DNA of 64,000 nucleotides from Lytechinus variegatus (lineage: Eukaryota; Echinodermata; Echinoidea; Temnopleuroida; Toxopneustidae), in the NCBI RefSeq assembly GCF_018143015.1, contig NC_054746.1:12453532-12517531 (forward strand), read 5' to 3'. Below, in pieces: positions 20,418-48,538 of this stretch. Numbering within the stretch: the stretch's first letter is position 1; every line of letters starts with the position of its first letter. The translations under genes and the position numbers were made by a program. The notes beneath the pieces were generated by a model, which worked only from the letters and a program-made list of their open reading frames with translations, searched no databases and was not told where the DNA came from.

Positions 20418-21758
20418 TATGGAAGCTTAAAAGTGCCACCGAGATGTTGAGATAATTATCTCGGGAAGTCGACATCTTGATAGCAAAAGATAAGATGACG
20501 AGATCCCAGATCTCATCATGTCGACATCTTTTAGAAGAGATGATGAGATGACAAGATCCCGAATCTCATCATGTCAACATCTTTTAGAAGAGATGATGAG
20601 ATGACAAGATACCGGATCTCATCATGTCAACATCTTTTAGAAGAGATAATGAGATGACAAGATCCCAGATCTCATCACGTCAACATCTTCTGGAAGAGAT
20701 GACAAGATCCCGGATTTCATCATGTTGACATCTTTTAGAAGAGATGTTGAGATGACAAGATCCCGGATCTCATCATGTCAACATCTTTTAGAAGAGATGT
20801 TGAGATGACAAGATCCCGGATCTCATCATGTCAACATCTTTTAGAAGAGATGATGAGATGACAAGATCCCGGATCTCGTCATGTCAACATCGTGTAGAAG
20901 AGATGATGAGATGACAAGATCCAGGATCTCATCATGTCAACATCGTGTAGAAGAGATGATGAGATGACAAGATCCAGGATCTCATCATGTCAACATCTTG
21001 TAGAAGAGATGATCAGATGACAAGATCTTCGATCCATGATCATGTCATCTAATCATCTCTTCTTAAAGATGTAGACATGACGAGATCCAAGATCTTGTCA
21101 TCTCATCATCTCTTCTAAAAGATGTTAACATGATGAGTTCCGGGATCTTGTCATCTCATCTCTTCTACAAGATGTCAACATGATGAGATCCGGGATCTTG
21201 TCATCTCATCATCTCTTCTACAAGATGTCAACATGATGAGATCCGGGATCTTGTCATCTCATCATCTCTTCTACAAGATGTCAACATGATGAGATCCGGG
21301 ATCTTGTCATCTCATCATCTCTTCTACAAGATGTCAACATGATGAGATCCGGGATCTTGTCATCTCATCATCTCTTCTACAAGATGTCAACATGATGAGA
21401 TCCGGGATCTTGTCATCTCATCATCTCTTCTACAAGATGTCAACATGATGAGATCCAGGATCTTGTCATCTCATCATCTCTTCTTAAAGATGTTGACATG
21501 ATGAGATCCGGGATCTTGTCATCTCATCATCTCTTCTACAAGATGTCAACATGATGAGATCCGGGATCTTGTCATCTCATCATCTCTTCTACAAGATGTC
21601 AACATGATGAGATCCGGGATCTTGTCATCTCATCATCTCTTCTAAAAGATGTCGACATGATGAGATCTGGGATCTCGTCATCTTATCTTTTGCTATCAAG
21701 ATGTCGACTTCCCGAGATAATTATCTCAACATCTCGGTGGCACTTTTAAGCTTCCATA
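20418..21758. mobile_element. Foldback element copy 2 (1.34 kb palindrome)
   Basis: Same family as 6672-7279: ends TATGGAAGCTTAAAAGTGCC and complement, each running about 50 bp. The left arm has about ten and the right arm about thirteen tandem units; typical spacing is 53 bp (for example GATGTCAACA at 21171 and 21224). Units carry GAGATCCGGGATCTTGTCAT. The arms switch direction near 21035 at GATCCATGATCATG. No ORF and no clear target duplication. It ends 28 bp past the oxidase A stop codon, on that gene's 3' side. Confidence 0.9.
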
Positions 21759-21785: not shown

Positions 21786-21853
21786 TCATAGCTTGGCGTA
21801 AATGATTTGTCTCCTCAGCAAGTCTTTTGTTACGTCAGCAACACTAAGTGAAC
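21786..21853 (-). CDS. HAO1: HAO A exon 8, terminal, PTS1 AKL
   Basis: After acceptor TTCAACAG the exon reads (G)[21 protein letters not shown] and stops at TGA. The phase (two bases completing Gly) matches exon 7. Though variable, it has the spacing of hydroxyacid-oxidase tails and ends in a consensus peroxisomal signal. The nearest AATAAA on this strand that I see is at 19960-19965, beyond the foldback element. Confidence 0.88.
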
Positions 21854-24800
21854 CTGTTGAAAACAAACAAATAATACGAGTTGACAACGATGTATGAAGA
21901 AACTCTTACGTCATCGAATAACGCTGTGCTCATTGGTCTCAAACTATATGAAGGATGTTACGTTGTTTATAATGTTATACAGCGCTATTTTACTATTTGA
22001 ACTTTACAGTAGTTGTTTAACAGCTTAAACAGCCATGCTTAATTTATTGAGAATTGAGTATCAAAAGTTAAACATGGTTGTTTAAGATTATGAACACTTG
22101 TTTAAACCGTTTAAACTACTGTTAGGTTCCGATATCAGCATTGTATAAAAATAAACATCGTTTTTACTGTGTGTAATGGGGGGACGTGAAAGACACGTTT
22201 AATTTCAAAGCAAGCGTAAGTCCAAAAATCATGCGTAATTGGGCTTTACAGAAAAGTTGTGTTGCAATAGAACTAAACAATTTGCGTTTAATCAAAGGAG
22301 TTACTTTTCATTTTATTTTAACTTATGCTTCATTCGTTATTGAACTTAATTTTCTAGCAACGCCCAATTGGTCTAGTTTTTGCCCGATATGTCATGTTTT
22401 TGCTCCATAAGTAATGTGCTTGCCCCGGAAGTCACAACTTTGCCAGGTTCTTGCCCAGTAAGTCATGTTCTTGCCCCATAAGTCATGTTCTTGTCGCATA
22501 AGTGAAGTTCCATCCCCGTAAGTCACGTACTTGTACGACAGTCATGTTTTCGCCCCATTATGACAGAGCTGCTAACCTTGTGTAAAAAAAAAAAAATCAT
22601 ACCCCCCCCAAAAAAAAATAAACAAGTGGAATGTCTCTGGCCGTCTCACCTGCATCACGCGGTTCAATATAGCAGCAGTGCTCACTTTGAATACTACAAG
22701 ATGTTCAGTGATACATGGTTACTCTTATGTCCACTTTTTATGAACTAGACCAATAAACTTACAGAGATATGATGGTTATTCAACAAAAAACCCCAACATG
22801 GCCAAAGTTCATTGACCTTACATGACCTTTGACTTTGATCATGTGACCTGAAACTCGAACAGGATGTTCAGTGATATTTGATTACTCTTATGTACAAGTT
22901 TCATGAATCAGATCCATAAACTTTCAAAGTTTTGATGGTAATTCAACAGATACACCCAATTCGGCCAAAGTTCATTGACCTTTGACCTTGGTCATGTGAC
23001 CTGAAACGCACACAGGATGTTCAGTGATACTTGATTACTCTAATGTCCAAGTTTAATGAACTAGACCAATAAACTTTCAAAGTTATGATGGTAATTCAAC
23101 AGATACCCCCGATTCGGCCAAAGTTCATTGACCCTAAATGACCTTTGACCTTAATCATGATACCTGAAACTTGCACAAAATTTTCAGTGATGCTTGATTA
23201 CTATTATGTCCAAGTTTCATGAATCAGATCCATAAACTTATAAAGTTATGATGGGAATTCAACAGATATCCCCAATTCGGCCAAAGTTCATTGACCCTAA
23301 ATGACCTTTGACCTTGGTCATGTGACGTGAAACTCATGCAGGATGTTCAGTGATACTTGATTAACCTTATGTCCAAGTTTCATGAACTAGGTCCATATAT
23401 TTTCTAAGTTATGATGACATTTCAAAAACTTAACCTCAGGTTAAGATTTCGATGTTGATTCCTCCAACATGGTCTAAGTTCATTGACCCTAAATGACCTT
23501 TGAACTTGATCATGTGACATGAAACTCTAATAGGATGTTTAGTAATACTTAATTAACCTTATGGCCAAGTTTTATTAACTAGATCCATATACTTTATAAG
23601 TTATGATGTCATTTCAAAAACTTAACCTCAGGTTAAGATTTGATGTTGACGCCGCCGCCGCCGTCGGAAAAGCGGCGCCTATAGTCTCACTTTGCTTCGC
23701 AGGTGAGACAAAAAATGGATTTCCAACAAGAAAAATTAATTTCTCAACACGTTGCTAATTATTTTCTTCAATCTAGAAGCAGCACTGCCTTATACCAACT
23801 AAGTCTATTCAAAGCATTAAGTCCCAGTTTGTTCACCTTTTTTCCCAAACAGAGCAGAAGAGACAAAAAGTTATAAAAAAGACATCATTGCAAACACCAT
23901 CAATAATGAAATGGAAGGAATGGTATCAGTCAAATATTGTTTGCTATCTATTCTCATAGTTGCAATTATTATTACATTATTAACGATTAAACATTGGAAG
24001 ATATTCTTTATGACTCACGCATCGCAGTCTATCTTTCTTACCTGTCAAAGCCATGGCAACGCTAAATTCTTTTTTAAGAATATCCAGCATTTTGCAGACT
24101 CCCGCAGTACCCTGGAATCATTTTGGAATAATTAAAAAAAAATAAAATGATATTCAAACATTTCACTTGCAATTTCTGTTTTTAAAAATCATTTTAATTC
24201 TGATTTCTGAGTTCAGGTTTCTGTGGTCAATGATCCAATATTGAATATGACCCTGTCTGGCTTCTATGAACTTCAGATGCATAGCTATGGTAACGGGAAG
24301 ATATTTTCTCAGGGTTCTTGTACGAATCTTGGCAAACTATTACCTTAAAACTTGAATAATCAAGTGTAATCGCTTTACGCATACCTTCCTTCATTAAATC
24401 ATTATACACCTTTCTTCTCGAGATGTGAGCGGGTTAATATCCTCTTTTTGTTTTGATTGTAATTGATTGGCGCTTAAGCAATTTCATTTGAAGAAGAAAA
24501 TCAAACGGCAAAATGGGGTGTCAAATAGGAAATGGAAGCGATGGATCTCACACTTTTTGTATTTTGTTATATGAAATATAAATAATTTGATTCTTTCCGC
24601 ATCTAATAAAAGACACGGTCTGATCTCATCTTGAACAAGACAGTGGAAACAGCATTATTATAACTTTTCGCTCATTCTAAAATATAAAAAAATATCATAA
24701 AACAAAATACAAAACAGATGTCAAGTTTGTGGTCCAATCAGCTCTCTCTCCCTTGCATATCATCCAGGGGCCGCGGAAACGGGGGCAGACCCCGCACTTT

Positions 24801-27800
24801 TTTTCCCCAAACCGGGCACAAAAACGTATATGATAATGATTTTTTTGCATGATCACCCCCTCCCATTTTCGGCTCAGCCCCTGCACTTTCAAAACCGTTC
24901 CGCGGCCCCTAGCATAGCCATCTGTGTTGTGCGTGTAATTTATGCGGAATCAAGTGAAAGTAAAATATATCACTCGCACAACATTATTTCAACACAAAAT
25001 TGAAATGCTTTTTATTCTTTTTTATTCAGATCAACATAAGGGGACCTGTTTGATAAATTTATGGCAATTTTTCCACTATGGTAAGTACCAAGGTAACATG
25101 ACTCAACACCCAATCAACGTCAACATAATCGTAAGTCTATGAATGATGGGGCAGAGGTTGTAATGGACTTGATCTTTAGAATGACCTTTGGAAGCGGATA
25201 TAAATACAGACTAACCTCCGACCGAGGTATAATGCACGTACCGTATACCACGTACTACTGGCCCCATGAAGGACCAGCGGCAAAAGTTATAGTTGCAGCT
25301 GAAAATATACTACCACAGTCTACCAGCCGTAATTTTACTTTGTTTATGTACTTTTGATTTGTAATATTATGCAACGGTCCATGATTTGATAGACCTATGG
25401 CACACATTTGTATTTCTTATATTTGTGTCATGTGCAAACTTATGTTTGCTGTTACAACTTTATGTAGGCCCATATGCATTCGTCTTTTTAGGCAAATGTG
25501 AAATTAAATGAATTGAATATGATTTAGTTTTATCTTACGGAAATAAGAACAACAACTTACATCATAATTAAGAGCCCATAGAGCCGGTCGACCTATGAAT
25601 GCAGCTCGGGCTCCTAGCGCCAGAGCTTTGAGGACATCATTTCCAGATCGAATACCGCCATCAAAAAATACTTCAATACTGGATCCTCGAACAGCATCCA
25701 CAACCTCCTCTAGGACATCGATCTGAAAGTGCGAAGAGTTTTGAGACAAGTAAGAGAAAGGAATAGCCCAATGATTGGATGTGTGGGGAGATATTTTTTC
25801 CCTTATAAGGATTGTCTAGTCCAGGAAAGGTGGATATTCATACATTAATACAAGTCTTGATGAATAAAAACTGTGCCCAGTTACTTATGATTTGTATTTG
25901 GCAAGATGTTATTTATTTCTCTGGAAACACCCCCTTAAGGAAACCTAGCGCATGCAGTTATCATTTACTACCAGGCCTAAGGAACACGAACTGTAAAGTG
26001 GGTTTTGCTATAAAAAGAATTATAGGGTACATTTCGTTTAACATTCCACTCGATTTATAACCTTTTTTTCCGTACGTGGTACTTCTCACAAAGCAGAGAC
26101 AGTGCTATTATAGGGGGCAAGTCTATAAGACACATGTCTTATCGATTTGCCCCCTTTAGTAATACTTTGCCCCAATGTCGCAATGCACATGATGTAAGAA
26201 ATCGCAACAATGAAAAGGGAGAAAGAGAGAGGGGGGGGGAGGTAGGGTTAAAAAAAAAATAGAGATATTTTTAAAAGGCATAAGAAATAGAGAGAAAAGG
26301 AAGCTGGTTACGATATAGATTGTGACATTACCGATGCAGGAACTCCATCTAATTGTCTACCTCCGTGATTCGACACACATATACCCGCTACACCACGCGA
26401 TACTGCTTCTCGGGCATCAGCAGCTAAAGAAAAAAAAGAGTCCAAACTTTATCATCGAATAATGGTAGGCCTATATTTCGATTTGAATCGTATGATCACA
26501 AGGAGATTGAGAGAAATTGTAAACATCATGGAGGTCTACAATAACAGAACAGTATCCTTTCTGACTTTGGGAGCCAGATAAAAAGGGGAACGCCTCTGGC
26601 ATGCAGTCTCAATCTCGCCTGCATCACGCGATTCAATATAGCAGCAGTGCTGACTTTGGAAACAACGAAGATTGATAATTAGGCCTAATAAAAAATCATT
26701 CACATCAAAATAAAATGCTAAGTTCATTGAACATGAATTACAGTTGATCTTAGACATGTGACCTGAAACTCAGCAGGATGCGCAGTGATATTATGTCCAA
26801 GTTTCACCAAGTTCTACCGAGACGGTTGTTCCATCATTGCTATAACACACCTACATATCCTCTGAAAAGTTGAAGATAGATTACAATGTACCTGTAAGAA
26901 TGCCTTTGACGACAATTGGCAGTGACGAGATGCTTCTGACCCACTCTATGTCGTCCCAGCTAACGGCATCATCGATTTGGGTGTCCACGTATTGCGGGAA
27001 GGTGTCATTATCTGCCCCATCCTCAATCTCCAACTGCTTTGGAAAGCTCTGTAATCTGCCAGGAATTAAGTCAAACTTAGAGTAAATATACTAGGATTAC
27101 AAGGCTAGTTCGCCTTTTGGATTTGAGTTAAATTGCATCACCCTAAGAATTGAAAAAATATTGCAAATATCTGGATTTTCATATTGACTAAGCCACAGAA
27201 CATTGATAGTTAAGTGCTTGACATTAAAGGGGGTTTGGGGGGAGAATTACATCATCCCGTAATGTGGCTAACTAGTTGCTACAAATACTTAGACTACCCT
27301 TCTGCTATGTAAAAGCAATTAAGCATACAAGAATTAAACTAACCGTACCTGACAGGCCTACCATAATGAGTAATCTATATCACCTGGTATTCAAACTCTG
27401 ATCTAAAATAGAAAGATTGTAGTCGTTTGTACCTGAATTTGGACGGTAACGCGAATTCACTCCTCAACGCTCGAAGCCTCCTTCCCAGGACAGGTGTGTC
27501 ACCAGAAACGAAGATAGCCTTGTAGCCCGCCCTCTCCGCCCGTTCAATGATCTTCCTCGTAATTGACCTGTCCCTGAAGATATGCACGTGGAACCAGCGC
27601 AGTCCATCACCTGATGCCGCTGCTACTTCCTCTATTGTACACGTTGTCCAAGCACTCAAAACCATGCCGGTTCCCATGGCTGAGGCGGCTATAGCAAGGT
27701 TTTAAAAACAGGAATTACAGAAGAGTAATTCTCCGGAAGTACCTGAACGATGTCTAGCAGTGACAACAAAAAATCTGGTGACTAGTCACTAAATACATAG

Positions 27801-30800
27801 ACGTATGACAGTGGGTTCATGAAAGAGTTGGAGAAGTTATTATTTACCTCACAACCAGATGAAGTATTGAAGGTCATCTTCATAAAAAAAAGTCATATGG
27901 ATCGAAGTAAAAGACCTACGACCTTTTCCTGATTTCATATCACGATGGCCGGACAATGAGTTTTCAGGAGGAATGGTGCACCAAATATAGATAATACGAT
28001 GCCATGAAATTGATTATAGATTCAATTTTCTCCTTTACATCATACATTTACTTTTCCATTTAATTCAGATAAAACATTAACCCGATGGCTTCGTAGGCCT
28101 TTCCTTAAATTTCCTTTTTTCACCAAATCTCATGCTACAGTCACACCGGTGATACAACGTGAAAACCACTCAAGAGTCCACGCAGCTCAACCGATTGATA
28201 CGTTATTACCCACGACATACCATCGGTCATTTAAGAGTTTGTTTCGTTGGTGTGACTGCATCTTTTGGGGACTTCTGATTTTCGACGGATTCAAGAACAT
28301 AGAAAACGTAGCCCTTCACGACAATGACCAACCAAGAAGTCTTTGTCGAAAATTGACGAATCAACACGGTAGTTTCATCTTGGACTCGGGAAAGACGATT
28401 GCAATTTTTCGTCAGCTCCGGGACTTAGGATAACACTGCTGTTCCGGCATACCAGTTTTCGACAAAGACCTTCCTAGCTGATCATTGTCATTTGACGGGC
28501 ATTTTCAAAACAATATTATTGTGTTCTTGAATCCGTTTTGTGTTGTGGAAGCGAAATCTCCCTATATTAGCAACATCAGTGATCCTACCTCTAGCCATGG
28601 CCACTTCTCCTTCCGGGTGGGCCATCTTCTGCATAGCTGTAGGGGCGATGGCAAAAGGGAAGGGTACCTTCTGTCCCAGGATGGTGGTCGATATATCCCT
28701 CGATGACACATCCCGTAGAATATATGACTGTAAGCGAATTCTATGTTCAGGATATATAGATATCAATTATGAAAGGAGGAATGAATAATCAGACAAGCAG
28801 CATTTGAGAGTTCAAAATACCATAATTTCTGGAGATTAATCGCTTCGGTCCCTAATTTCACAGCATGTAGACCTTATCTTTAGTATCAGCTCGCCATTAG
28901 TAATGAGAATCAGGACTTCGGATATTGAAGGATTTTGTGAATTCGATTCCATATCTTTAAAACCAAGAAAACAAATATGAATTCACCAATGACGAATGTT
29001 TTTAATAATCTACGCACCTTCCATTTTGTGCATTTCTTTCATCCTTACCGACAAGTCCTTTCATAAAACGCGCTTCCCATGTATTATATACATGTATTAT
29101 CATTATCGTGTATTTAATTAAGCATCACGTATAATTGCTTATTGTTTTTATGTCCACACAATAGATTCTGTATGCTTACTTTGGTTGTGCATATTTACAA
29201 TTCATTGGAACACCCCTCCCCTCCGCCATGGGATGAACAGCTGTAACAAAAGATGTTTAATGTCATAGAAGGTCCAAAGTATGTTTGTGTCAGGGTCCTG
29301 TCTTACAAAGAGTTGCGATTGATCCGATCAATCTTAAGTAGGCCTACATGGAAATTCATCAATATCATAATTTTCCTTCTGGAAATTTGCTCAATATCCT
29401 TTGAAAACATAAAGAAGCATACTGAATTGTCAAGAAAAAAACAGTAAATGTATGATTATACGCCATTTCCGGAAAATATTTTGAACCAACATGTATTTAA
29501 TAATAAAAAATAAAAATTAACAACATTTCTGATTATTGTTGACAATCCATAGTTGCAATCAATTGGATCAATCGCAACTCTTGGTAAGATGGGCCCCAGG
29601 AGTTCAATATTAACATCCAGGATGATCGTGATACAAGCAAACGCACAATTTGCGCCTTGGTTAAACTCATGAAAATATAGGAAGTGATCATTTACACAGT
29701 CACTATCGGTAAAGACCGAGAGGATCCGTTATAAAACACTTCTGGATCCCGTTTCATTAAGCCAATTTCTAAAAGCCACTGCACAATTTCTATAATAATT
29801 TTTATCGCCAATCAATCATTTTTAATGATTTCAGTAGCACGAAACTGTAATTATAAAAGTTAAATGAAACGGGCCCCTGGATAAAAATGTGCTATAATAA
29901 TCAATAATTATCTAGATAATTAGACAGAGAATGATCTTAGATAGATTTGTCATCTTGTGTGAAAGACATGGCCGCCCCCATTTCAATTACAGCCATATCC
30001 ATATTTTTTTTCGCTGGGGGCAGCAAGAGTAAACTTTATCGAAAAGCGCAAGGGCGAAGCGACTGAACTTGTCACTGGGGTGTTTTTGCCCTATTTAAAG
30101 TGGAATTGAAGGATTTCTTACATACTATTTTATCAAACTTTTCAGTAAAAATGAAAGTAGTCCAAATTTCTGGGGGGGAGGGCAACTGCCCTCTCCCCTG
30201 CTGCGTCACGGTCATGATTTGAATGAGCTTTATAACAGCAACTCGGCAAGTATTTTTTTAAAGATGTAGTCATTTTTCAGAGCATCTCTTTTCCCATATT
30301 ACGACCCCCCTCGTTCTTCATAGAGTTACGCTACTCTTTAGTCAATATCTGAATTACAAAATGTGTGATTTATACATATCTGAACTAAAAATGTAATTTA
30401 TACTATTAACCGATGCTTTGTGTTTCATTTATATTCACGGCAAATTGAATAAAATTTGTACATCTCAAATAAAAAATACAATTAAAACACATTGAAATAT
30501 AAGTTACAATACTTTAAATAGTTGAATAATTATATTTCTGTTTGATCATTCAACTTAAGTGCTGTATTATTGTGGATGAAACCTTGAGAAAAAATCGTTT
30601 GTGAATCAAATTTCCCGGTAATTAACATGATATTCGTACGCCTTGATTAACAACTTCAGACTTAACAACCACATAACCATTGTATATAGAGATGTATTAG
30701 ATATAAACATCAATTAACATCAACAAGAGTGAAAAGATTTGTTTTATTCGTGTTTGATCTAACACTTGAAGATTTGCAACTGAAATTTTGTAATTGATTG

Positions 30801-31174
30801 CAAATATTTTCTTGCAACACCCCTTAGTCTACTTTAGTATTTTTATACGTACTATTGCATTGGGAATTTTGCTGGCTAGTGCTATGTCTGGCAAACCTGT
30901 TCAGTGTTAGTAAAAGAAAAAAAATGAAGAAAAAATGAGTGTCTACTCACCGTTTAAATGCCTCTTGATTATCTCTCACACTCTGTTCAGTACCAGATCC
31001 CCCTGCATAGTAATCAAATATTTCTTTCGTCATGTTCTTCTTTGCATATTCCTCAAAGTCTGGTAAACAGACGACATTTGGCTTGCATTGTAGATCTTGA
31101 CATGGCCAGCATTCCTCATCTTCGGCTTCGCATGGTTTCTTTCGGCATATTGTTGGATTTCCAATTGCATCCAT
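21786..31174 (-). CDS. HAO1: 2-hydroxyacid oxidase paralogue A (HAO1-like), complete 8-exon gene
   Basis: Exons in transcript order: 31174-30951, 28740-28589, 27688-27433, 27055-26892, 26423-26332, 25722-25561, 24111-24042, 21853-21786; 1188 bp, 395 aa. The start has a good context (ACAATGG). The product is an FMN-dependent alpha-hydroxyacid oxidase with a TIM-barrel fold, which in the family oxidises glycolate or longer 2-hydroxyacids to 2-oxoacids with H2O2. Tyr55 (FDYY), Trp139 (LSAW), VVKGIL lysine, [10 protein letters not shown] His and Arg, and the FDGGIRSG and GRPALW FMN-phosphate loops are present. The C-terminus YAKL is a peroxisomal PTS1. Oddities: residues 159-161 are His-Val-His where the family has Gln-Leu-Tyr, and an extra N-terminal stretch holds six Cys in the first 36 residues (10, 15, 22, 25, 30, 36). 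It is a tandem duplicate of the gene at 38220-48538. Substrate and activity are uncertain. Confidence 0.95.
22370..22560. repeat. Short tandem repeat, about 20 bp unit
   Basis: Variants of AAGTCATGTTCTTGCCCCAT repeat about nine times with small changes. It lies in oxidase A intron 7, just before the tandem-repeat-cored element. Non-coding. Confidence 0.7.
22632..23709 (+). mobile_element. Tandem-repeat-cored element, copy B
   Basis: An 11 bp inverted pair, GTCTCACCTGC (22643-22653) and GCAGGTGAGAC (23699-23709), bounds a core of five to six units of about 150-190 bp; GGATGTTCAGTGATA recurs near 22861, 23014 and 23340. The left flank has GTCTCTGGCC and CATCACGCGGTTCAATATAG; the right flank has AAAAGCGGCGCCTATAGTCT. 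Copies are at 10288-11229 and, as a fragment, 26585-26811. No protein. The layout recalls non-autonomous Helitron-like elements with central tandem repeats, but that family call is only a guess. Confidence 0.75.
22976..23314 (+). promoter_or_regulatory. Three perfect DR1 nuclear-receptor motifs inside the repeat
   Basis: TGACCTTTGACCT, the complement of AGGTCAAAGGTCA, occurs at 22976-22988, 23139-23151 and 23302-23314; one- or two-mismatch versions are at 22823 and 23494. DR1 is the consensus for HNF4 and PPAR/RXR-type receptors. They lie in the last intron of oxidase A. Whether any is bound is unknown; they recur because they belong to the repeat unit. Confidence 0.45.
24042..24111 (-). CDS. 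HAO1: HAO A exon 7
   Basis: The exon encodes [20 protein letters not shown] then ALT and a split Gly, the family's final helix (E-x-x-x-A-M-A-L-x-G). It is 70 bp, the same as exon 7 of paralogue B. Acceptor GATTCCAG, donor CAG|GTAAGA on the minus strand. Confidence 0.94.
24766..24911. mobile_element. Short inverted element, AGGGGCCGCGGAA ends
   Basis: AGGGGCCGCGGAAAC and its near-complement GTTCCGCGGCCCCT close a 146 bp segment with a CCCGCACTTTTTT and AGCCCCTGCACTTTC interior. The same ends recur near 31855-32020 and 32808-32950. It lies between exons 6 and 7 of oxidase A. Confidence 0.7.
25561..25722 (-). CDS. HAO1: HAO A exon 6, FMN-phosphate loops
   Basis: The exon runs [40 protein letters not shown] and [17 protein letters not shown]-x-R and GRP are the two FMN phosphate-binding loops of the family and both are intact. 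162 bp, phase 0 at both ends, as in paralogue B. Confidence 0.96.
26332..26423 (-). CDS. HAO1: HAO A exon 5, catalytic His/Arg
   Basis: The exon encodes [20 protein letters not shown] and [10 protein letters not shown]. The His and Arg of SNHGGRQ correspond to the catalytic base and substrate-carboxylate Arg of the family. It is 92 bp, the same as paralogue B. Confidence 0.95.
26585..26811 (+). mobile_element. Tandem-repeat-cored element, copy C (fragment)
   Basis: It has the left flank (GCAGTCTCAATCTCGCCTGC, ATCACGCGATTCAATATAGC) followed by less than two degraded units with CATGTGACCTGAAACTC and GTCCAAGTTTCACC. The right end is missing. It sits in intron 4 of oxidase A. Confidence 0.65.
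26892..27055 (-). CDS. HAO1: HAO A exon 4
   Basis: The exon encodes [40 protein letters not shown] and [14 protein letters not shown]. The flexible loop 4 region is diverged, while SW-x-D-I-x-W and P-I-V-V-K-G (catalytic-site Lys) are kept. 164 bp, nine shorter than in paralogue B. Confidence 0.95.
27433..27688 (-). CDS. HAO1: HAO A exon 3, altered active-site strand
   Basis: The exon encodes [20 protein letters not shown], then [36 protein letters not shown] and [16 protein letters not shown]. Trp139 and the DTPVLG-x-R Asp/Arg are kept. The family strand F-Q-L-Y reads F-H-V-H, replacing the Gln and Tyr that contact flavin and substrate. 256 bp, as in paralogue B. Confidence 0.96.
28136..28258. 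mobile_element. MITE, ACAGTCACACC ends
   Basis: CTACAGTCACACCGGTGATA and GTTGGTGTGACTGCA are inverted ends of a segment of about 125 bp in intron 2 of oxidase A. It is similar in parts to 900-1040. A second imperfect pair, TCTTTGTCGAAAATTGACGA near 28340 and GTTTTCGACAAAGACCTTCC near 28455, follows. Confidence 0.55.
28589..28740 (-). CDS. HAO1: HAO A exon 2, FMN-binding TAMQKMAH
   Basis: The exon encodes [37 protein letters not shown] and [14 protein letters not shown]-x-x-I-A-P-T-A-M-Q-x-M-A-H-P-E-G-E is a family signature around the flavin. 152 bp, the same as paralogue B; acceptor AACATAG, donor GAG|GTAGGA on the minus strand. Confidence 0.95.
29293..29597. mobile_element. MITE, GGGTCCTGTCTTACAAAGAG ends
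   Basis: GGGTCCTGTCTTACAAAGAG and CTCTTGGTAAGATGGGCCCC are inverted; arms continue with TTGCGATTGATCC and GGATCAATCGCAA. About 305 bp, in oxidase A intron 1. Confidence 0.8.
29742..29880. mobile_element. MITE, TGGATCCCGTTTCATTAA ends
   Basis: TGGATCCCGTTTCATTAA and TTAAATGAAACGGGCCCCTG form imperfect inverted ends of a 139 bp element in oxidase A intron 1. Between it and exon 1 (to 30950) I see only AT-rich intron. Confidence 0.7.
30951..31174 (-). CDS. HAO1: HAO A exon 1, Cys-rich extension and first helix
   Basis: The exon starts [20 protein letters not shown], then [16 protein letters not shown] before the conserved family start [18 protein letters not shown] carries the substrate-contacting Tyr55. 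The first Met gives about 28 residues more than paralogue B. Donor ACG|GTGAGT. No Met lies between residue 1 and the conserved start, so the extension is read through in this model. Confidence 0.93.
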
Positions 31175-38219: not shown

Positions 38220-38296
38220 TTACAGTTTTGAAGAGGTATAAGATGGCGGTTGTCTTCGGACTAATCTCCTGTTGATTTCTGAGATTTTTGTTGCAC
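38220..38296 (-). CDS. HAO1: HAO B exon 8, terminal, PTS1 SKL
   Basis: After acceptor TTTTCAAG the exon reads (G)[24 protein letters not shown] and stops at TAA. The I-x-E-I-x-R-x-L-V pattern is typical of hydroxyacid-oxidase tails, followed by the peroxisomal tripeptide. Possible ATTAAA signal near 38039-38044. Confidence 0.93.
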
Positions 38297-41200
38297 CTTG
38301 AAAAGAATTATGAAAAAAAAAGGAAATAGGTCAATCATTGTATGTAAAATATAAATCATATGCGCTTAAATGTGTAGAATTTTAAAGTACCCGTGAAACC
38401 AGTTGCTTTTGCTGAGATTGATTCCATCTGGAATGTATTGCATAACGGTAACTTTTGCATCCAATGGCAACTTCCATAGAATTCTATATATATATTGGCT
38501 GTTGAGTTATGTTGGTATGGTAATTGCCGATGGATGGTACAGTCACAGTAATAGTGATTTTTTTCAAGGCAATTGCCCCTGACAACTTTTAGTAGTTGTG
38601 GGAAGATGAATGTTTTCAGGAAAAAAATACAATCAAATAAAAAAAAAGAAAACTTGTGAGAAAGCATATAATCGAAGGTTACTTGTTAGGAAGGGTACCC
38701 CTATTCATCAGCTCATCATAATATCTGGAAATTTGATTTCAAAACATCTGCTATTCAATTCAATTCAATTCAATTTATTTACATTCTCTATAAAAATATT
38801 AATAACATACATGAACAACATACACAAGATACACAAGATACGCACGTAAAACATAAGTATAAAACATGAAGGTCTTACCCGAAAGAGCCATGGCAAGACT
38901 AAACTCATCCCTCAAAATTTCAATCATCCTCTTCACTCCTGCCTCACCCTGGTCAATAAATGTGGAAAGAAAACAAAAGATTAACGAATAGGAGCAGAAG
39001 AGAGGTGGATATTTCAATTGTTAATTGTGTGTACCCTCAGCAACCCAATTGCATATTTTCAGAACATTAGTTTTTTTTTTCTATTTCTTAGATTAAATCT
39101 ATTTTTTAATGATAGCCATAGAAATCCGATCCACTATGATTGGTATGCTAACATTTACCCCCAGCTTACATGATTCTCAGAGAAGATGAATCAATATTTT
39201 TCTTGTTCTCATTGACAATGTTTTATTGTAATTTCCCTCTACACATCCAGTATTCATTTATGACTAAGGTAGCAAATGAGCACTCAACTAATATGGTCAA
39301 ATGAAATATTAATTCTTAAGCAATTTTTTTCTTCTCTGAGCTATGATAAGCCACTCAAATAATCAATCCTTGAAATCCTGTTTGTATACAATCATATGCT
39401 GTGATGTTCAGTAATCTTCAGGAAAGTTTTCAGATTGTCAAAATGACCTCCGTTTGGAAGGTATGTAAAAACTGAAAATCAAATCCTGGACTAGCCTATT
39501 CAAAGACTATGCGTGGTCTTGTGCTCTGTAAAAAAATAAAAATTCAGGTAGTTTATTTATAAATACTACACAGCGTTGCGAGTATTATTATGAATTATAC
39601 ATGCACAAGATACCTTTGAAAACCTTTGAAACAGTTTGGACAATGTCAAAGGTAACAATTGTGGTTAGATATTCTAATGCCCATTTGATAAACCATCCTC
39701 ACCTCAGAACAATAACTGGTCAATACAACTAGTCATTAGTATTAGCCATTAACAACTTTGCCTGTTAGCTACAATAAATGAGTGGTCACATGATAGATAT
39801 CAGCCAATCATATAAGTAGGATCCATATCACAATTTTATATAGGATATTGACAAGAAAGTCAATATTCTATGACTGCACTTACATTGTATGCCAAAGCCC
39901 ACAATGCTGGCCGACCAACGAATACCGCCCTCGCTCCGAGGGCTATCGCCTTGAGAACATCTGTTCCAGTCCTGACGCCACCATCCAGATAAACCTCCAA
40001 CCCAGTGCCTTTTAAAGCATCAACAACCTCGGGCAAGGCTTCAATCTATTCAAAAGGTCAATACAAGTATTCCAAATAATATTTTCAATACTGTCAACAA
40101 AATGGTCGACATTTTCTGGGTGGTTTATGATTTCCAAATCATCCAGCTAACAGGAAGGGTTTCTTTTATCAAAAGAATGAAAGTACAACAACTGCTACTG
40201 GCTATCATGGTAAAACATGTAAATAAACTGAATGACACATCATTTTACAAATTAAGACAGTTTCATCTAACAAATAACCTTTTTTCAGTTGCATCTTAAC
40301 TTGTTTAATATTTCAGCTAAGTTGAGGAGAAAATATGCTCCAGAGAAATTCTGGCAAAGGGTTTTGATGAATAATTCAATGTCCTTAGACAGTTCATGTC
40401 ATTGGAAATTATACAAATATAGTGGTAAACATAAATATACTGAGCTTACTGTAGATGGAACCCCATCGAGCTGTCTAGCTCCATGATTGGATACGACCAC
40501 ACCTGCTACATTGTGTGCTGCTGCTTCTCGTGCATCCTCAGCTAGACAAGAATAGAAAAGAAATATTTCTAAGATAAAACCATTTCCAAGGAAATATGAA
40601 GTCTATTTCTATCTCCTTTCCAGTAATTACTACAATCAATTTTAAATCACAAAGGCTAAACCAGGGAATCTCAAGAAGCGGCACACATTGTACTTAGTCA
40701 GGCTTGGATGCAAGGGGGGGGGGGGGCAGGGTGGCTACACCTTCTCGACCCCCAACTGGTTCCCATATAAACCTGTTTTTCTTAGAACTGATTTCTTGAT
40801 AAACAAGAGCTTTTCAGAATCTTATCTTCAATAATGTCTTATCTCTATGCATAATGTTGCATATATTTCTTTAATTAATGCCATCATTAGCTAACTATTC
40901 ATTATTCTATTGATTACTAATTCATTGAATCATTTAATTCTATCTATTTTAATTCAATGATTCATCAATCACTCATTTTTAACTTTCAATGATATTCCAA
41001 TTCATTTCCTTTAATTTTTTGTTGAAAACCCTTCTCTCCTTTTCTGTTTGCGGTTGTGTGGGTTTGCTGTGTGCGTGTGTAGTTTCCACAATCCTAATTT
41101 ATTTATTTATTTTATTTATTTATTGTTTCATGTGTGTTCACATCATCCACAATCTCATATATGAAAATACAGTGATACATGTTTATTACATAAAGACAAT

Positions 41201-44200
41201 ATTACGTAAAGAAAATAATACATAATTACCTGTGAGGACACCTTTGAGAATGATTGGTAATGATGTGATAGTCTTCAACCATTCAATGTGCTTCCAGCTC
41301 AGCGTAGGATCAATCAGTGACGCTACGTACTCTGTTAGACCAGAACTGGATGATCCACGTACACCACACGACTCGATCAGCTTCGAAGTGAAGTTTGCCA
41401 ATCTGTTATAAAGAAAAACAACATTTATTAATTGAAAAAGAATATAACACACGAATGTATGTTCAATTCAATCCATATATTTGGTTTAGCAGGATTCTTT
41501 TTAGTGCAGAGCACTAGCTTGTAACAGAAAAGGAGTATTTGTAATGTTTTTAAATATTCAATTAGTTTGCACAAGAATGCCTGTGTAAATGCCACATTCA
41601 TATCTGCTCATGTGTAGTCTTAGCTCAATTTTTCCTCATTGTGACCTTACATGTATGTGAGCATTTACTCGCTGAATGAAAAATAATAAATGAAAATATC
41701 ATTACTCAAAACCTGAATGGTGCAAATTTTACTTTCAAATTAAAGCATTGTAAATAGCAAACATAAAAGCTATAGGCCTATATGTCACAGAACACATACT
41801 GACTATTACTCCTGTGCTTTCACTTGACAAGAATTGAGTTAACTTTTTAAAATCCTCATGGAAGATAATCATTACTGATTTTTTTTTTGATAATATTCTT
41901 TTTTTTCATATAGCACTTATCACAGCATCCTTAATAGTAATTAAGAAATAGTGGAACATTTATGGTTGCTTGATTTTTTTCTTTATTAATCATTTTTATT
42001 TCAAACATTGAGCTTGGACTTTGACAGACTTCTAAAAATATGCATGAACAATATTTACATTATCTCAGGATATCCTTGGCATAACATGAAGCTATTCAAT
42101 TTCATATTTGAATAAGATGATTTATAAAAAGATTTATTACATACTACCTTGGATGGGGTTTGTACTTTGAAACTATAAAACTTTATGTCCTTAAAACAAT
42201 CGCTGCCATCAAATTTGCAATGTTAATTCTTTATAGTTTGACACTCGCTTGTAGTCATGCAAAACAAAACCAAGCTTATAAATACATATTTCGGTTGTGA
42301 TATGAGTTAGCAATTTCTAATGTATGTGAATCTAAATTACAGTTCCAAAATATTCTGTTTCTGCCCAGACTGCCATAATTTTTCTTTTTATTTCATTATT
42401 TTAGAGGCGATTTGCAATTTTGCAGTATCCAAAGAAATCAGCAGTGAGTTTTGATTGTGGAAATCCCAAAATGCTATCCTAAATCTATAATATGCTTTGT
42501 ACCTTTTGTAGAAGAAATCGTAAGAATTCTTAAGAACTTTAAAAGCACCATGGCTATATCATTTCTTGTTCTATAATTATTCTGCTGCTGTATACAAATC
42601 AGACTAACTTTTTAAAGGCCACACCAATTTGAGTAATTTGAGTACAATAGATCTATGCATTGGCATCATCGAGCCGCCATGTTAGAGGTCAATGCCATTG
42701 CCTTGCGTACACATGTAATCTCTGACAATGAGATTTACATGTATTTCTATATCCTCTAAGGGAGGGGGCTATAAGATTATGTCACATGTATAAGGTCTCT
42801 ATATGCACCATGGACGTTCAACACAACGAGAGGCCTACTTGTCCTTGCAGGTTGACATTTTCAGAGATGGCCTCCAAGGCGAGTATTGACAAATTTAAGA
42901 TAAATACAACTGAACAATGACCTCCTTGCCTGAAGCACAAAATGTTAAAATAATGGAATTCCACATGTTTGGGGAGGAATGAAAATTCATTTCACATGAC
43001 AATGATGAGAAAATAAAAATATTTCAAATTTCATATAATATAATAAAATACAAAAGAAATAGTGAGTGAGTGATGTCATCAGTTCCCTCATTTGCATACT
43101 GACCGATATGTGCATATAACTGTTTTGTGAAATGAAGCGAAACTTTAAAAAGTCATAACTTTCTTAATTTACATCCGATTTTGATGAAATTTTCAGTATT
43201 ATGCTTGTTGAATTTTTCTCTTTTTATTCAAATCAAGTTTTTGTCGGGGTGGGCTTGTCCTTTAATCAGTAGAACTAGAAGTAAGATCCAAGAAAACTAA
43301 TATTGTAATCAATAATAGAAGCAACACACAGCACTTGATGTTATCAACCAATCTCTCAGGACTACAAGGAGGACTCAGGAGACACACGTCACAACAAGTA
43401 TGCAACCTAAATATGCAAAGGACTGTGAAATGCACAAATATATTGACAATTGAATTGAAAAATGTTCATCCTCACAATTCAGCATATATGATTTAAACAG
43501 TAATGGGATCATTACAAGTTCAAATTAAAATATTTCGTTTCTTCCAATAGAGATCAATGCTACAAAGGGTTGAAAGATTCAAAGTGTACCTCAGTGCTTT
43601 AAATTAATCTAAAGAACTAGTCTAAGAATTAGTCTAAGGACTGGCTTTAGATATTTTTTTAACTTTTTATTTTTTTCACATTTTTGCTGTAATAAAAAAA
43701 ATATTCACCTAGCAGGAAAAGAGGCCTTTCCCTACAATATAAAACTTTAAAGCCTGTTACCTTAGTGGCTCCGGTAATGAGAACTTGTTCCTGATATCGG
43801 CCAGTCTCTTCCCGAGCACGGGCGTATCCACCGTCACGAAAATGGCCTTGTAGCCCGCCCTCTCTGCACGTTTGACCAGGTCCCTGGTGACCTCTCTGTC
43901 CTTGTACACGTAGAGCTGGAACCATCTTAGTCCCTTCCCAGAAGCCTCTGCAACTTCCTCGATGCTACTGGTAGACCAGGAACTGAGGATCATACCGGTG
44001 TCCATTGCTGTAGCAGCTGTGAAGTAAAAGGGAGAGAGAAAGGGTGAAGGGGAGGAGGGTAGGGTATAGTCAAGAAAACAAACAATATGAAAGGTTTTAA
44101 AATGCTCAGCAGATGGACTCTTACTTGGCGTTTACCCAACCTACTATTTTAGAAAGTCTTATTTATTCAGGAAGCATGATTTACTAGAAATAAACCAAAG

Positions 44201-47200
44201 ATTTATTTTTCCATGAGGAAGCAGCCAAAAAATAGTTTAAATAAAACAGTTAGTCAAAACAGTTCAGGTGAAAATTTATTAAACACTTTTCTTGGCAGAT
44301 TAAAGTTGAAAGGTACATAATTGAAACTGTTTTTTGGGACACCTACTATTTCTTTTTTTTCCCAGTGCTACATTGACACAAAAATTTCTTAATGAGATAG
44401 ATTTAAATCACTATCAGGATGTGCAATGTTGATAAAAAGCACAAGTTCCCAGAATTATTAATCATATTTTATGAGATAACAACACACAATGTTTCTCTTC
44501 ACATTCATTTATAAAGCATCATCTTGATTGATCATCATCATTGTCATCATAATGATTGTCATCATAATCACCATCATTACCATCACCATCACCACCATCC
44601 TAATGATCAACAAATCGATCAGCATCATCATCATCAATACCATCATCATTATCATCATTGCCATCATCCTCATCATCATTTTATCATCACCATCATCATT
44701 ACCACCTCATCACCACCACCATCATTATCATCATTGCCATCATCATCATCATCATCATCACCACCATCATCATCTCTATTTTCTCTATAATGTATTTATA
44801 CCTCGTGCTGTTGCCACTTCCCCATCTGCATGGGCCATTCTCTGCATAGCTGTAGGTGCGATAGCAATGGGATAGGGGAGCCGTTGACCAAGGACAGTCG
44901 TTGACATGTCACGCACAGACACATCTCGAAGAATACGAGGATAAAGCCTCAGTCTGAAAAAAATATCAAATTAGATTGGTAATGAATTCAGGCAGGTGTG
45001 TTTCAGAGTATTATGCTTGGTTTCCACAATAAATTTAACATATTTATAAAAGTAAAAATTATTATGAAACATTAATAAAGTAGCACTACAAATACTAGTA
45101 ACAATTATGTAACCAAATAAATTGAAGTATTTGTAAATATTGCTTTGCATCAAATCAATAAGACATTTAAGAAAAATGTACACCTTCTGGTTACATATTT
45201 AAGTTGTAGAGCAGAGACTGGTAAAGTATGGTCCAAAGTCTACAGTGACACTTCCCACAATTACTTGTCTCCAATAAACTCTTTACTTATAAATGGAAAC
45301 AGTAACTTGGATTATTCATTGGATATCTTATAAAATGAGGTCCTTGAACCCTTAGAGACAAAGAAAATGAACTCTGAGCTGATTTTTTGAAGACTGCTTC
45401 ATCATTGAAATGGCATTCCTTGAATTTACTGGACCTTCTCATTGTGCCATCTAAGAGGGGCACAGTCTTTCTGCAAATGTATTGAGATCTATAGGCAGAT
45501 ATAAGATTATACGCACACCAAAATACATTTTGATGATGGAAGCATGAAAACGCTTGTCCATTTTATTATTGTAACAGTTTGTTGTATGGGCTCTCCTCAG
45601 CTCAAATCAAGCGTCTCCAGCAAGTACATGTACAGATGACATGTGTATGGCTGATAAATCAGCCATACACATTTACTTTAGTCAACCAAGATTTTCCCAG
45701 GATCACCCCTATCCTAAAGATCTGCACTGGCTATCAATCTCCAATGAATATCTTTTAAGATTTTGTTAATTGTATACAAGGCACAAACTGGTCAAGCCCA
45801 GAGCTTTATTTCTGAGCTTTTACCAAAGTTCACAGGCACACTCACAACCAGCACAGTTCTCTGACTCGTAACACAAAGATAACTTTGGGAGATCGTGCAT
45901 TTGCCTGCGAAGCCCTAAAATTATGGAATGGCTTGCCATATGTAATAAGATTGTCTCCATCAGTAGAAACATTCAAATGTAGACTAAACACCTATTTTTT
46001 CCAGTAATTTCCATACAATTTTATTTTCTTTCCCTTTTCTAAATTTGTTTGCAAGCATTTCAACAGCTCTTAATTACAGCACAGAGTACATGCACATAGT
46101 TTCTGCACTATACAAATCAGTATATTATTTATTTAACATTTATATAGCATATCATATATGATATGGTATAAGGTGTGATTTGTAGTTTGGATAAGCTTTA
46201 GAAAGACCTAGATCTAGAAGCATTGGAAATTTGTCGTTAAAAATTCACTTATCAACTTAAAATTGAAATGAAATATATAATAAAAATGTAACGTTTCATT
46301 TTCTATTATCGAAATAGATGCATGATGTAATACTTTATGATTATGAAAATGAAAGTAAATGTGCCTGCTAACCAACCCCTTTTCATTCAATAAAATATTT
46401 ACTTTTTTATAGATGGAATACACTGTAGGCCCGTATTCTGAAGTCGGGTTTAACCTAGACCATGGTCTAAATCTGTGCTAAAATTATGGGAAGCCAAGTG
46501 TCAAAATTTTTATTACGTTGTATGTTTCTTATTTTACTGTGCTTTTTCCTGATTCATCGATGGTGAAGACAATCATCTATTAATACTTCCTAGACAATTA
46601 TGAATGATTTGAGAGCAAAATTAGCTGACGTATGATATCTCTACTGTTAGTAATTTATGAAACAATTGGCTATCCATACTTAAACCACAACTTTAAACCT
46701 GAGTTTAAGTTAAACCTGCTATCAGAATAGGGGCCCATGAATTACATTAAATTAGAATGAAAATAGGTCTAAATATTAGAAAAAAATAGGAAAAGAAAAT
46801 TAATATCAATGAGACTCCTTTACGAGATATCATTGTGAAACTGTGCCCTGCTCATCAAATATTTAAAGATAGTGCAGTTCTACAGGTTGACATTAGTAAA
46901 AATATATGTATTTCCAATACATCACAAGAAATTTCTCCTTTTTTAGCAGAGAGAAATTTAAAAATGTAGGCCAAAGAGATTGAACAAGGAGATGGAGGAC
47001 GAAATGAATGGAAACAAAATAGGAGAGAAAAAGAACAATAAAAGAATAAAGAAAATGGAGAAAAATATTCAGGCCATGAAATTGACAGAGAAAGGAGTGA
47101 ACCAGAAAGATAAAAAAAGGAAAAGGGAAAAAAGATAAAGTAATGTTCACTCAATGAACAAACAGGAAGAAAAAAAGATTCTTCTACTATTCAATAAGAA

Positions 47201-48538
47201 AAAAATATGAAATAGGAAAGGAAGAGAAAACACTATCTAAAGCCAAGGTCTACATTTACAAAAAAACAAAGATGAAGAGGTAGAGAAAATGAAGAGAGAA
47301 ATATAATACAAGAGAAAATGAAAAAAATTTTGAGTGATTAAAGAGAAAGAAAATAATGTTTTTTAAAAGGTAACAAACGTGGCAAAGAAAAATAAATAAA
47401 ACTAAGTGGAGAAAATAATTGAATGGAGAGCAAAGAACAAACAAAAATTATCATCATGGCATATGGAATAAAAATAGTATACTAAACTCCCTCAAATGAA
47501 GGAACTGTTTCTTTTCTTCACTTTAATCAACAATTCAAACAAGAACTTCATCATGACATTCAAGCAAATTTATAAACACAAACATTGCCATTGGATCAAT
47601 TATTGCTCTTTCACTAATACCCTTTTCATAAACCTATCCTCCAATTAGCCGCCTAAGAGTAATGCGGATAATTCAATAAATATTGTGTTCATAAACTCCA
47701 AAAATAAGCCGCATTATTTTTACGAGCGCCCGTCCTGAAAAAGGCGGATAATCGCCATGACAACTGGACACGCCCCCTCCGATGCGGTTGTGTTGGAAAA
47801 GGGTGACCTTGTGACCGCACCATGGCAATTATCCGCATTATTTGGAAATGCGTTCATAAACTCAAAATCTTATCCCGATGCCAGCATCAGAGTAATGCGG
47901 ATAACTCTTGTCCTCCTCCAATTTTACGACCAAATTATGCTGCTATTAGCCGCCTAATTCATTTTAATTGGGTTTATGAAAGGGTATAAGTTTCTGTCTC
48001 ATCTTCCCCAATGTCATTTGCATAACCATAATAAGTCCCAAAAGCTGGTTGAACCTTGACCTTGAGGGGGAACATCCTGAAGGGGAAATTAATCTTTTAA
48101 AGTGTTAAAAGCTGTTTTGGGATCTCAACACCTGAAAGTGGGCGGGGCATGGGCGTGACCACAGGGGATCGCTGAAATGGATGAACGAGAGGATATGATC
48201 GGTCTTAGTACGCAGTCCTTACCTTCTACTAGAGCGATTTCTAAGCACGCAAAGAGAAAAAGCATTGTCACGTTCCCGTGATATTTGCTTACGAATTACA
48301 CATGAGATTAATCTCCAGGTAAAGCGGTTGGGTTGTGCGAGATTAGTTTTTCGGAGGGGTTAACCAGAAACATGTGAAGAAGTGAACATCTATATTACCT
48401 TTCAAATGCGCTTCGATTATCTTTCAATGTTTGTTCGGAATTTGCACCACTCCTATAATAATCAAGAGCATTCTTTGGGAGGTATTTGATAGCAAAATCT
48501 TCAAAATCTTGGAGACAAACCGCGGCGTCCATGTCCAT
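38220..48538 (-). CDS. HAO1: 2-hydroxyacid oxidase paralogue B (HAO1-like), complete 8-exon gene
   Basis: Exons in transcript order: 48538-48399, 44953-44802, 44016-43761, 41402-41230, 40541-40450, 40045-39884, 38948-38879, 38296-38220; 1122 bp, 373 aa, close to the 370 aa of human HAO1. The product is an FMN-dependent (S)-2-hydroxyacid oxidase of peroxisomes, making 2-oxoacid and H2O2. The active-site set is intact: Tyr27 (LDYY), Trp111 (LSSW), Gln131 and Tyr133 (FQLYVYKDR), DTPVLG-x-R, ILKG Lys, [10 protein letters not shown] His and Arg, DGGVRTG and GRPALW. The C-terminus is SSKL, a textbook PTS1. The start ATG is followed by a second in-frame ATG two codons on; the first has A at -3 and G at +4. 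It matches the neighbouring paralogue A intron for intron. Glycolate oxidase is the likeliest activity. Confidence 0.96.
38755..38785. repeat. (CAATT)n run
   Basis: TTCAATTCAATTCAATTCAA then TTTATTTACATT lies about 95 bp beyond the 3' border of exon 7 of oxidase B. It may be the tail of a retroelement. Confidence 0.6.
38879..38948 (-). CDS. HAO1: HAO B exon 7
   Basis: The exon encodes [20 protein letters not shown] and ALS plus a split Gly, the conserved last helix. 70 bp; acceptor TTGACCAG, donor CGG|GTAAGA. Confidence 0.95.
39884..40045 (-). CDS. HAO1: HAO B exon 6, FMN-phosphate loops
   Basis: The exon encodes [40 protein letters not shown] and [14 protein letters not shown]. Both phosphate loops are intact. 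162 bp; acceptor TTGAATAG, donor AAT|GTAAGT. Confidence 0.97.
40450..40541 (-). CDS. HAO1: HAO B exon 5, catalytic His/Arg
   Basis: The exon encodes [20 protein letters not shown] and [11 protein letters not shown], carrying the catalytic His and the substrate-binding Arg. 92 bp; acceptor TTGTCTAG, donor ACA|GTAAGC. Confidence 0.96.
41090..41130. repeat. (ATTT)n microsatellite
   Basis: ATTTATTTATTTATTTTATT lies in intron 4 of oxidase B. Confidence 0.75.
41230..41402 (-). CDS. HAO1: HAO B exon 4
   Basis: The exon encodes [40 protein letters not shown] and [18 protein letters not shown] Ser-rich loop 4 precedes the conserved SW ... W-L and I-L-K-G (active-site Lys). 173 bp; acceptor TATAACAG, donor CAG|GTAATT. 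Confidence 0.95.
43010..43263. mobile_element. MITE, AAAGGACAAGTCCACCCC family, copy 2 (right part)
   Basis: The right end reads CGGGGTGGGCTTGTCCTTT and the interior shares AAAGAAATAGTGAGTG, CATCCGATTTTGATGAAATT and TTTTATTCAAATCAA with copy 1 at 4044-4415. The left end is not recognisable. It lies in intron 3 of oxidase B; 41410-42900 otherwise shows only AT-rich intron. Confidence 0.7.
43761..44016 (-). CDS. HAO1: HAO B exon 3, intact active-site strand
   Basis: The exon encodes [59 protein letters not shown] and [15 protein letters not shown]. Trp111, Gln131, Tyr133 and the TVDTP Asp are as in characterised glycolate oxidases. 256 bp; acceptor TTCACAG, donor AAG|GTAACA. Confidence 0.97.
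44527..44775. repeat. CAT/CAC trinucleotide repeat in HAO B intron 2
   Basis: Runs of CATCATCATCA, CACCATCAT and ATTATCATC fill this 250 bp, starting about 26 bp inside the intron from the exon 2 donor. On the transcript strand it is GATGATG and GGTGGTGATG. Three ORFs over it (His-, Ile- or Ser-rich) are not genes. Confidence 0.9.
44802..44953 (-). CDS. HAO1: HAO B exon 2, FMN-binding TAMQRMAH
   Basis: The exon encodes [40 protein letters not shown] and [10 protein letters not shown], the family signature around the flavin. 152 bp; acceptor TTTTTCAG, donor GAG|GTATAA. Confidence 0.96.
45690..46045 (+). mobile_element. Degenerate LINE reverse transcriptase tail (CR1/L2-like)
   Basis: Across shifting frames the segment resembles I-T-P-I-L-K-D-L-H-W-L, then [18 protein letters not shown]-like sequence and a final [13 protein letters not shown]. 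This is the C-terminal domain also seen in the LINE at 53362-53942. It is broken by several stops and shifts. It lies in intron 1 of oxidase B. Confidence 0.6.
46428..46736. mobile_element. MITE, GGCCCGTATTCTGAAGTCGG ends
   Basis: GGCCCGTATTCTGAAGTCGG and CTGCTATCAGAATAGGGGCC are inverted; GGTTTAACCTAGA pairs with TAAGTTAAACC. About 309 bp in intron 1 of oxidase B. Confidence 0.75.
47618..47986. mobile_element. MITE, TACCCTTTTCATAAACC ends
   Basis: TACCCTTTTCATAAACC and GGGTTTATGAAAGGGTA are inverted ends. TTAGCCGCCTAA recurs near both ends and AGAGTAATGCGGATAA near the left is matched on the right by GAGTAATGCGGATAACTC. About 369 bp in intron 1 of oxidase B. Confidence 0.8.
48399..48538 (-). 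CDS. HAO1: HAO B exon 1
   Basis: The exon encodes [40 protein letters not shown] and NRSAFE plus a split Arg. Tyr27 of DYY contacts substrate in the family. Donor AAG|GTAATA. The length of this N-terminus is normal for HAO1, unlike paralogue A. Confidence 0.95.

Follow-up and report, generated by a model that had tools for sequence, protein, structure and literature searches.

The locus studied here raises the question of what it means that one of two tandem genes for FMN-dependent 2-hydroxy-acid oxidases in the sea urchin Lytechinus variegatus (gene A) carries His-Val-His at the place where its neighbour (gene B) has Gln-Leu-Tyr: a changed enzyme, an inactive one, a gene in decay, or an error in the sequence. 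The window, i.e., the whole stretch of DNA that was analysed, comprised 64,000 nucleotides, and positions refer to it unless genome positions in Mb are given.

Structure of the two tandem genes

Gene A consisted of eight coding exons on the minus strand, running from 31174 to 21786 in the 64-kb window, and its product comprised 395 amino acids plus the stop codon. All its introns were of the GT-AG type, the intron phases were equal in genes A and B, and an in-frame stop lay two codons upstream of the ATG. The spliced frame was open; the eight-exon model and its intact splice sites thus upheld the claim of the earlier note that the frame is clean over 395 codons. The C-terminus AKL was judged by eye to be PTS1-like, and we take it, under PTS1 rules, as a predicted peroxisomal targeting signal. 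The coding features were as follows:

Gene A exon 1, 30951..31174, minus strand: start codon, Cys-rich extension (Cys10, 15, 22, 25 and 30) and the equivalent of Tyr26
Gene A exon 2, 28589..28740, minus strand
Gene A exon 3, 27433..27688, minus strand: FHVHIF and SGDTP; GT-AG, phase as in gene B
Gene A exon 4, 26892..27055, minus strand: equivalent of the catalytic Lys236
Gene A exon 5, 26332..26423, minus strand: [10 protein letters not shown], with the equivalents of His260 and Arg263
Gene A exon 6, 25561..25722, minus strand: FMN-phosphate loops DGG and GR
Gene A exon 7, 24042..24111, minus strand
Gene A exon 8, 21786..21853, minus strand: stop codon and the PTS1-like C-terminal AKL
Gene B, 38220..48538, minus strand: canonical HAO1-like paralogue of 8 exons and 373 amino acids, ending in SKL and keeping QLY and TVDTP

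A mutually exclusive exon 3 encoding Gln-x-Tyr was considered for gene A and rejected, since a tblastn of HAO1 against the whole window returned a single exon 3 per gene; the sole extra exon 3 match was a 20-bit chance match at 53842-53750, ending before the site. Tandem arrays with units of 163 and 192 bp were present in the last intron of gene A (22696-23649).

Residue changes at the active site of gene A

The codons of interest, whose coordinates were counted from the exon ends, were located as follows:

27582..27590, minus strand: His159-Val160-His161 (CAC GTG CAT), replacing Gln-Leu-Tyr; His159 at 27590-27588 (CAC), Val160 at 27587-27585 (GTG) and His161 at 27584-27582 (CAT)
27501..27506, minus strand: Ser187-Gly188 (27506-27501), replacing Thr-Val ahead of Asp-Thr-Pro

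Comparison with neighbour B, human HAO1 and spinach glycolate oxidase confirmed two observations of the earlier note, namely that gene A reads FHVHIF (159-161) in place of Gln-Leu-Tyr and that TVDTP has become SGDTP. Gene B retained FQLYVY, with Gln131 and Tyr133 as had been described, and its codons at the site were CAG CTC TAC. At the exon 3 sites tabulated, the changes of gene A against human HAO1 were Q130H, L131V, Y132H, Y134F, T158S and V159G. Therefore, the Gln-x-Tyr motif of HAO1 and glycolate oxidase (HAO1 130/132) was absent from gene A, whereas the substrate residues Trp110 and Arg167 of these enzymes were both present. Residues unchanged in gene A (HAO1 numbering) included Ser108, Trp110, Asp160 and Arg167 in exon 3, Tyr26, Lys236, His260, Arg263, Asp291, Gly292 and Gly314 in other exons, and also Tyr208; the catalytic His/Asp dyad, the Lys, the Arg and the FMN-phosphate loop residues of the FMN_dh superfamily were all retained. 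The statement that Trp, Lys, His, Arg and the FMN loops stay intact stood for the listed residues, but "FMN loops intact" was slightly too strong, given that the site is also affected by Y134F and T158S.

The changes of gene A at 130-135 were not significantly clustered (p 0.137; longest run 5), nor were active-site and FMN residues, taken as a chosen set, enriched in changes (3/18 changed vs. 45/169 overall); clustering and enrichment were consequently dropped as independent evidence.

Family membership and phylogeny

The whole protein A matched PF01070 (FMN_dh) with an E-value of 8.5e-130 and 433.3 bits (cut-off 24.9) over profile positions 1-349 of 350, and exon 3 alone matched HAO1 structures at 1.7e-25; because of these two matches gene A is regarded as a true family member and not a chance match. 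Among solved structures, the top E-value for protein A belonged to a two-copy lactate oxidase construct, whose two copies sum, followed by hydroxyacid oxidase 1 entries. Identities were 57.2% between A and B, 50.7% between A and human HAO1, 59.3% between B and human HAO1, and 48.3% between A and spinach glycolate oxidase. A limited literature search found no paper on sea urchin HAO genes, and such papers may exist.

Trees were built from 275 columns and, with ten bacterial outgroups, from 279 columns. The A and B pair received a support of 95 in the first tree and 93.8/98 in the second, and the grouping of A, B and human HAO1 against the rest received 73 and 93.6/98, respectively. With a single vertebrate HAO1 sampled, the trees place A and B as tandem co-orthologues of HAO1, and gene A by descent in the HAO1 branch of PF01070. 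As its activity is judged from sequence, and Gln-x-Tyr was tested and is absent, the label of a functional glycolate oxidase would be unwarranted for it. Branch lengths were 0.40-0.42 for A and 0.21 for B; gene A thus evolves about twice as fast as gene B, which also fits a partly relaxed constraint.

Constraint on gene A

Differences between genes A and B by codon position were 127/74/225 over 367 codons. Pairwise dN was 0.33-0.34, dS was saturated (2.0 by LWL85, undefined by NG86), and 65 of 101 four-fold sites differed, corresponding to a divergence of 1.46. The comparison shows purifying selection, by measures that are pairwise and do not refer to A's own branch; with the whole of dN but half of the LWL85 dS assigned to A, the ratio comes to about 1/3, which is a bound and not a branch test. 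Gene A had the common residue at each of the 39 columns that did not vary among the other 18 aligned proteins (columns with a letter in at least 16 of these 18 rows). Among sites common to B, HAO1 and GOX, 45 of 170 were changed in A (169 with A aligned), and among those common to A, HAO1 and GOX, 10 of 134 were changed in B. In a neutral simulation the frame stayed open in 0 of 2000 runs, whether 0.2, 0.4 or 0.8 substitutions per site were applied.

The interpretation of gene A in the earlier note found support in part, namely in its preference for divergence over decay, which agreed with the intact eight-exon frame, the pairwise dN/dS measures, the four-fold divergence and the retention of all 39 invariant columns. 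A pseudogene was not favoured in view of this divergence, of the frame remaining open where simulated ones did not, and of the same columns.

Variation of the site among prokaryotic relatives and sea urchin paralogues

Prokaryote genomes were scanned with patterns that leave out the Gln-x-Tyr site, the scan being a sample without animals and not a census. It yielded 69 relatives, 64 of which cover the site and five of which do not; Gln130, Tyr132 and Thr158 were each kept in all 64 informative loci.

The search of the sea urchin genome itself (869.6 Mb, 33 contigs) with PF01070 gave at least 83 exon-level matches, grouped into at least 17 loci: A, B and 15 HAO2-like loci. Two bindin loci were also present in this genome; bindin being an echinoid protein, this fits a sea urchin and agrees with the earlier note's pointing to echinoderms. 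The gene models of the latter were automatic and comprised exons 2-7 only; in the alignment a tblastn fragment was substituted for exon 3 of C13_31.70, and exon 7 of C2_15.65 was left out. Gln130 was kept in B and in 10 of the 15 HAO2-like loci and was Asn in the other five, His being found in A only. Tyr132 was kept in B and in 12 of the 15, His occurred in A and in two HAO2-like loci, and Leu in one. The two HAO2-like loci with His132 were the near-identical 26.69b and 33.75b, reading Asn-Ile-His, so that Gln was changed too at all three His132 loci. This pair and A lie far apart in the tree; at least two separate origins of the Tyr-to-His change are therefore probable in the family of this genome. 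A second copy of A was rejected, as none of the other 16 grouped loci (a lower bound) pairs with A rather than with B.

Several further features of the HAO2-like genes were observed. The expansion (L009-L028; C2, C10, C13 and C16 of the genome) included at least 15 loci with variable Trp110, Gln130, Tyr132 and Arg167 columns, and Lys236, His260 and Arg263 were kept in 15/15. Locus 33.75b (L017, 3105-4077) contained exon 6 once in full and in five partial tandem copies at a spacing of about 158 bp. Near-identical HAO2-like genes occupied C2 of the genome at 26.66-26.69 Mb and at 33.72-33.76 Mb, representing a segmental duplication or an uncollapsed haplotype, and in each of these copies genes a and b were oppositely oriented.

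The cysteine-rich N-terminal arm

The N-terminus of gene A included about 30 residues missing from B, HAO1 and GOX, with five extra cysteines within residues 10-30 (CX4CX6CX2CX4C) ahead of the shared Cys36. Residues 1-30 of A matched only A itself in the genome, and four other first exons matched A from residue 31-34 on; at most of the remaining loci this search matched no first exon, and an unlike extension is possible there. The Pfam search gave no match over the arm. Its cysteine pattern suggests the idea, offered simply as such, that the arm may bind metal or form disulfides.

Foldback element and neighbouring features

One feature lay immediately downstream of gene A:

20418..21758, minus strand: foldback element 3' of the gene A stop codon, possibly in the 3' UTR

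This element of about 1.34 kb started 27 nt downstream of the stop codon; its terminal arms of 291 nt were 95% complementary, and it contained tandem units of 53 bp. The mRNA of gene A may carry the hairpin, because the first AATAAA/ATTAAA after the stop codon (19971 and 19965, about 1.8 kb downstream) lie beyond the element, which could affect the expression of the gene.

Elsewhere in the window, on the plus strand, an astacin metalloprotease match (6231-6599, 3.5e-25) and a CUB domain with Thr/Ala/Pro repeats after it (11566-12177) perhaps belong to one astacin-CUB gene.

Possible function of gene A

We hold with moderate confidence that gene A arose by tandem duplication of a sea urchin HAO1 gene and is intact, with a product that is probably sent to peroxisomes and would fold and bind FMN as a 2-hydroxy-acid flavoenzyme with a rebuilt active site. 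Its catalytic properties can be proposed from the observed sequence, gene structure, pairwise constraint and phylogeny, and from residue roles that belong to general knowledge of these enzymes beyond the papers on HAO1 and Hmo (p-hydroxymandelate oxidase). We take Gln130 and Thr158 of HAO1 to make flavin contacts, and Tyr146 of lactate oxidase to be the same tyrosine as HAO1 Tyr132. In A, Tyr26, Arg167 and Arg263 would still grip the substrate carboxylate, His260 and Asp160 would still remove the proton of the alpha-OH, and Lys236 would still support reduced FMN; as these carboxylate-holding, proton-removing and flavin-supporting parts are unchanged, the protein probably still works with a 2-hydroxy acid and FMN. 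The phenol of Tyr132, a hydrogen-bond partner of the alpha-OH, would be exchanged for a shorter, titratable imidazole, and the flavin-side Gln130 for a second imidazole; Thr158 would become Ser, and the Tyr134 hydroxyl, which helps to hold the gating loop, would be lost. Such an enzyme would likely depend on pH and differ in rate, in substrate or in what becomes of the reduced flavin, and would not be a plain glycolate oxidase; more of the keto-acid intermediate might be handled in the site, with less free H2O2.

Published enzymology bears on this proposal. In human HAO1, a drug target for primary hyperoxaluria, Tyr132 is one of the residues that line the pocket for the substrate, and Tyr134 belongs to the gating-loop network of hydrogen bonds (PMC9114433); Tyr146 of lactate oxidase binds the C2 oxygen (PMC4908395; PMC7039449). 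The Y128F variant of Hmo converts mandelate to benzoate by a four-electron oxidative decarboxylation with a kcat of 4.5 per s, H2O2 being inverse to benzoate; R163A, H252F and R255A were reported to lose activity and R163L was called low-activity (PMC6677016). Benzoate is also formed by Y128C (PMC6778850). The spacings Tyr128/Arg163 and His252/Arg255 of Hmo are 35 and 3 residues, as for Tyr132/Arg167 and His260/Arg263 of HAO1, and from this equal spacing, not from an alignment, we infer that Hmo Tyr128 corresponds to HAO1 Tyr132. Altered catalysis in A is favoured by analogy over loss of function, because in these reports the loss of the matching tyrosine changed the reaction of Hmo without killing the enzyme. 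A more specific proposal, which we put forward as speculative and rather improbable, is that, through His-x-His, a peroxisomal 2-hydroxy-acid oxidase has come to catalyse a different reaction, for instance an oxidative decarboxylation that releases little free H2O2, perhaps in conjunction with a Cys-rich arm that binds a metal or forms disulfides, as one of several separate rewirings in the expanded family.

It is unlikely, though retained as a rival reading, that A is instead a low-activity or non-catalytic FMN-binding pseudoenzyme, whose retention would be due to binding, to sensing or to a place in mixed tetramers formed with B. The loss of two residues that all 64 informative prokaryote relatives keep would agree with this, as would the N-terminal extension missing from B, HAO1 and GOX. 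Of the ten EC 1.1.3.15 candidates that proved inactive in a published screen, eight had lost one or more of seven conserved residues, and the full set was present in 12 of the 14 active candidates (PMC8491902; its section 8 does not name the seven); by analogy this weighs towards low activity of A, and low or no activity fits equally. Nevertheless, a pure scaffold would not need His260, Arg263, Lys236, Asp160, Tyr26 and Arg167, all of which are retained.

We likewise doubt that A works as a normal glycolate or lactate oxidase, with His130 and His132 taking the place of Gln and Tyr at a modest kinetic cost. Neither Gln nor Tyr was substituted in any of the 64 informative prokaryote relatives and the A branch is accelerated, even though certain HAO2-like loci of this genome tolerate changes of Gln and Tyr and A has retained the PTS1. 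In addition, it keeps the Trp and, by our own mapping, the Thr of Thr-Trp-Val, listed in Table 2 of PMC7020209 as the glycolate signature of plant-type enzymes.

Early decay, or a silencing recent enough to leave the frame unbroken, is very unlikely as an explanation. The foldback element 27 nt past the stop codon, the distance of about 1.8 kb to the first AATAAA/ATTAAA and the faster branch of A could be read in this way, and a very recent silencing is possible, but no neutral run was stop-free at any of the three simulated distances while the four-fold divergence between A and B is 1.46, and 39/39 invariant columns are retained. An assembly or base-calling error is hardly credible: two errors could suffice, each His being one base off an ancestral-type codon (CAC from CAG/CAA, CAT from TAT), but the neighbouring L131V, Y134F, T158S and V159G would require more of them in a frame that is otherwise clean.

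Taken as an intact HAO1 duplicate with a rebuilt active site, gene A would offer a constrained, natural His-x-His beside a canonical tandem sister, in a genome with at least 17 relatives and several separate changes at the site. Such a natural experiment bears on how the Gln/Tyr site sets substrate, oxygen reactivity and reaction outcome.

Comparison with known enzymes

Human HAO1 and spinach glycolate oxidase (EC 1.1.3.15) resemble A in the FMN_dh domain, Trp110, Lys236, His260, Arg263 and a PTS1-type end, whereas A departs from both in Q130H, Y132H, T158S, Y134F and the Cys-rich N-terminal extension of about 30 residues. Gene B is the tandem neighbour of A, with 57.2% identity and the same intron phases, but has kept Gln-Leu-Tyr and has a branch half as long. 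The HAO2-like 26.69b and 33.75b share with A a Tyr-to-His change of separate origin together with the loss of Gln; in contrast to A, they belong to the HAO2-like branch and have Phe in the Trp110 column and Asp in the Arg167 column. In the Y128F and Y128C variants of Hmo the same tyrosine, by spacing, is altered and the His and both Arg are retained as in A; these are, however, forms of an engineered bacterial enzyme with measured activity, with Phe or Cys instead of His, and the available excerpts describe no Gln change. With oxidative decarboxylases of the LMO or Hmo Y128F type, which convert a 2-hydroxy acid to an acid one carbon shorter, A shares the altered tyrosine only.
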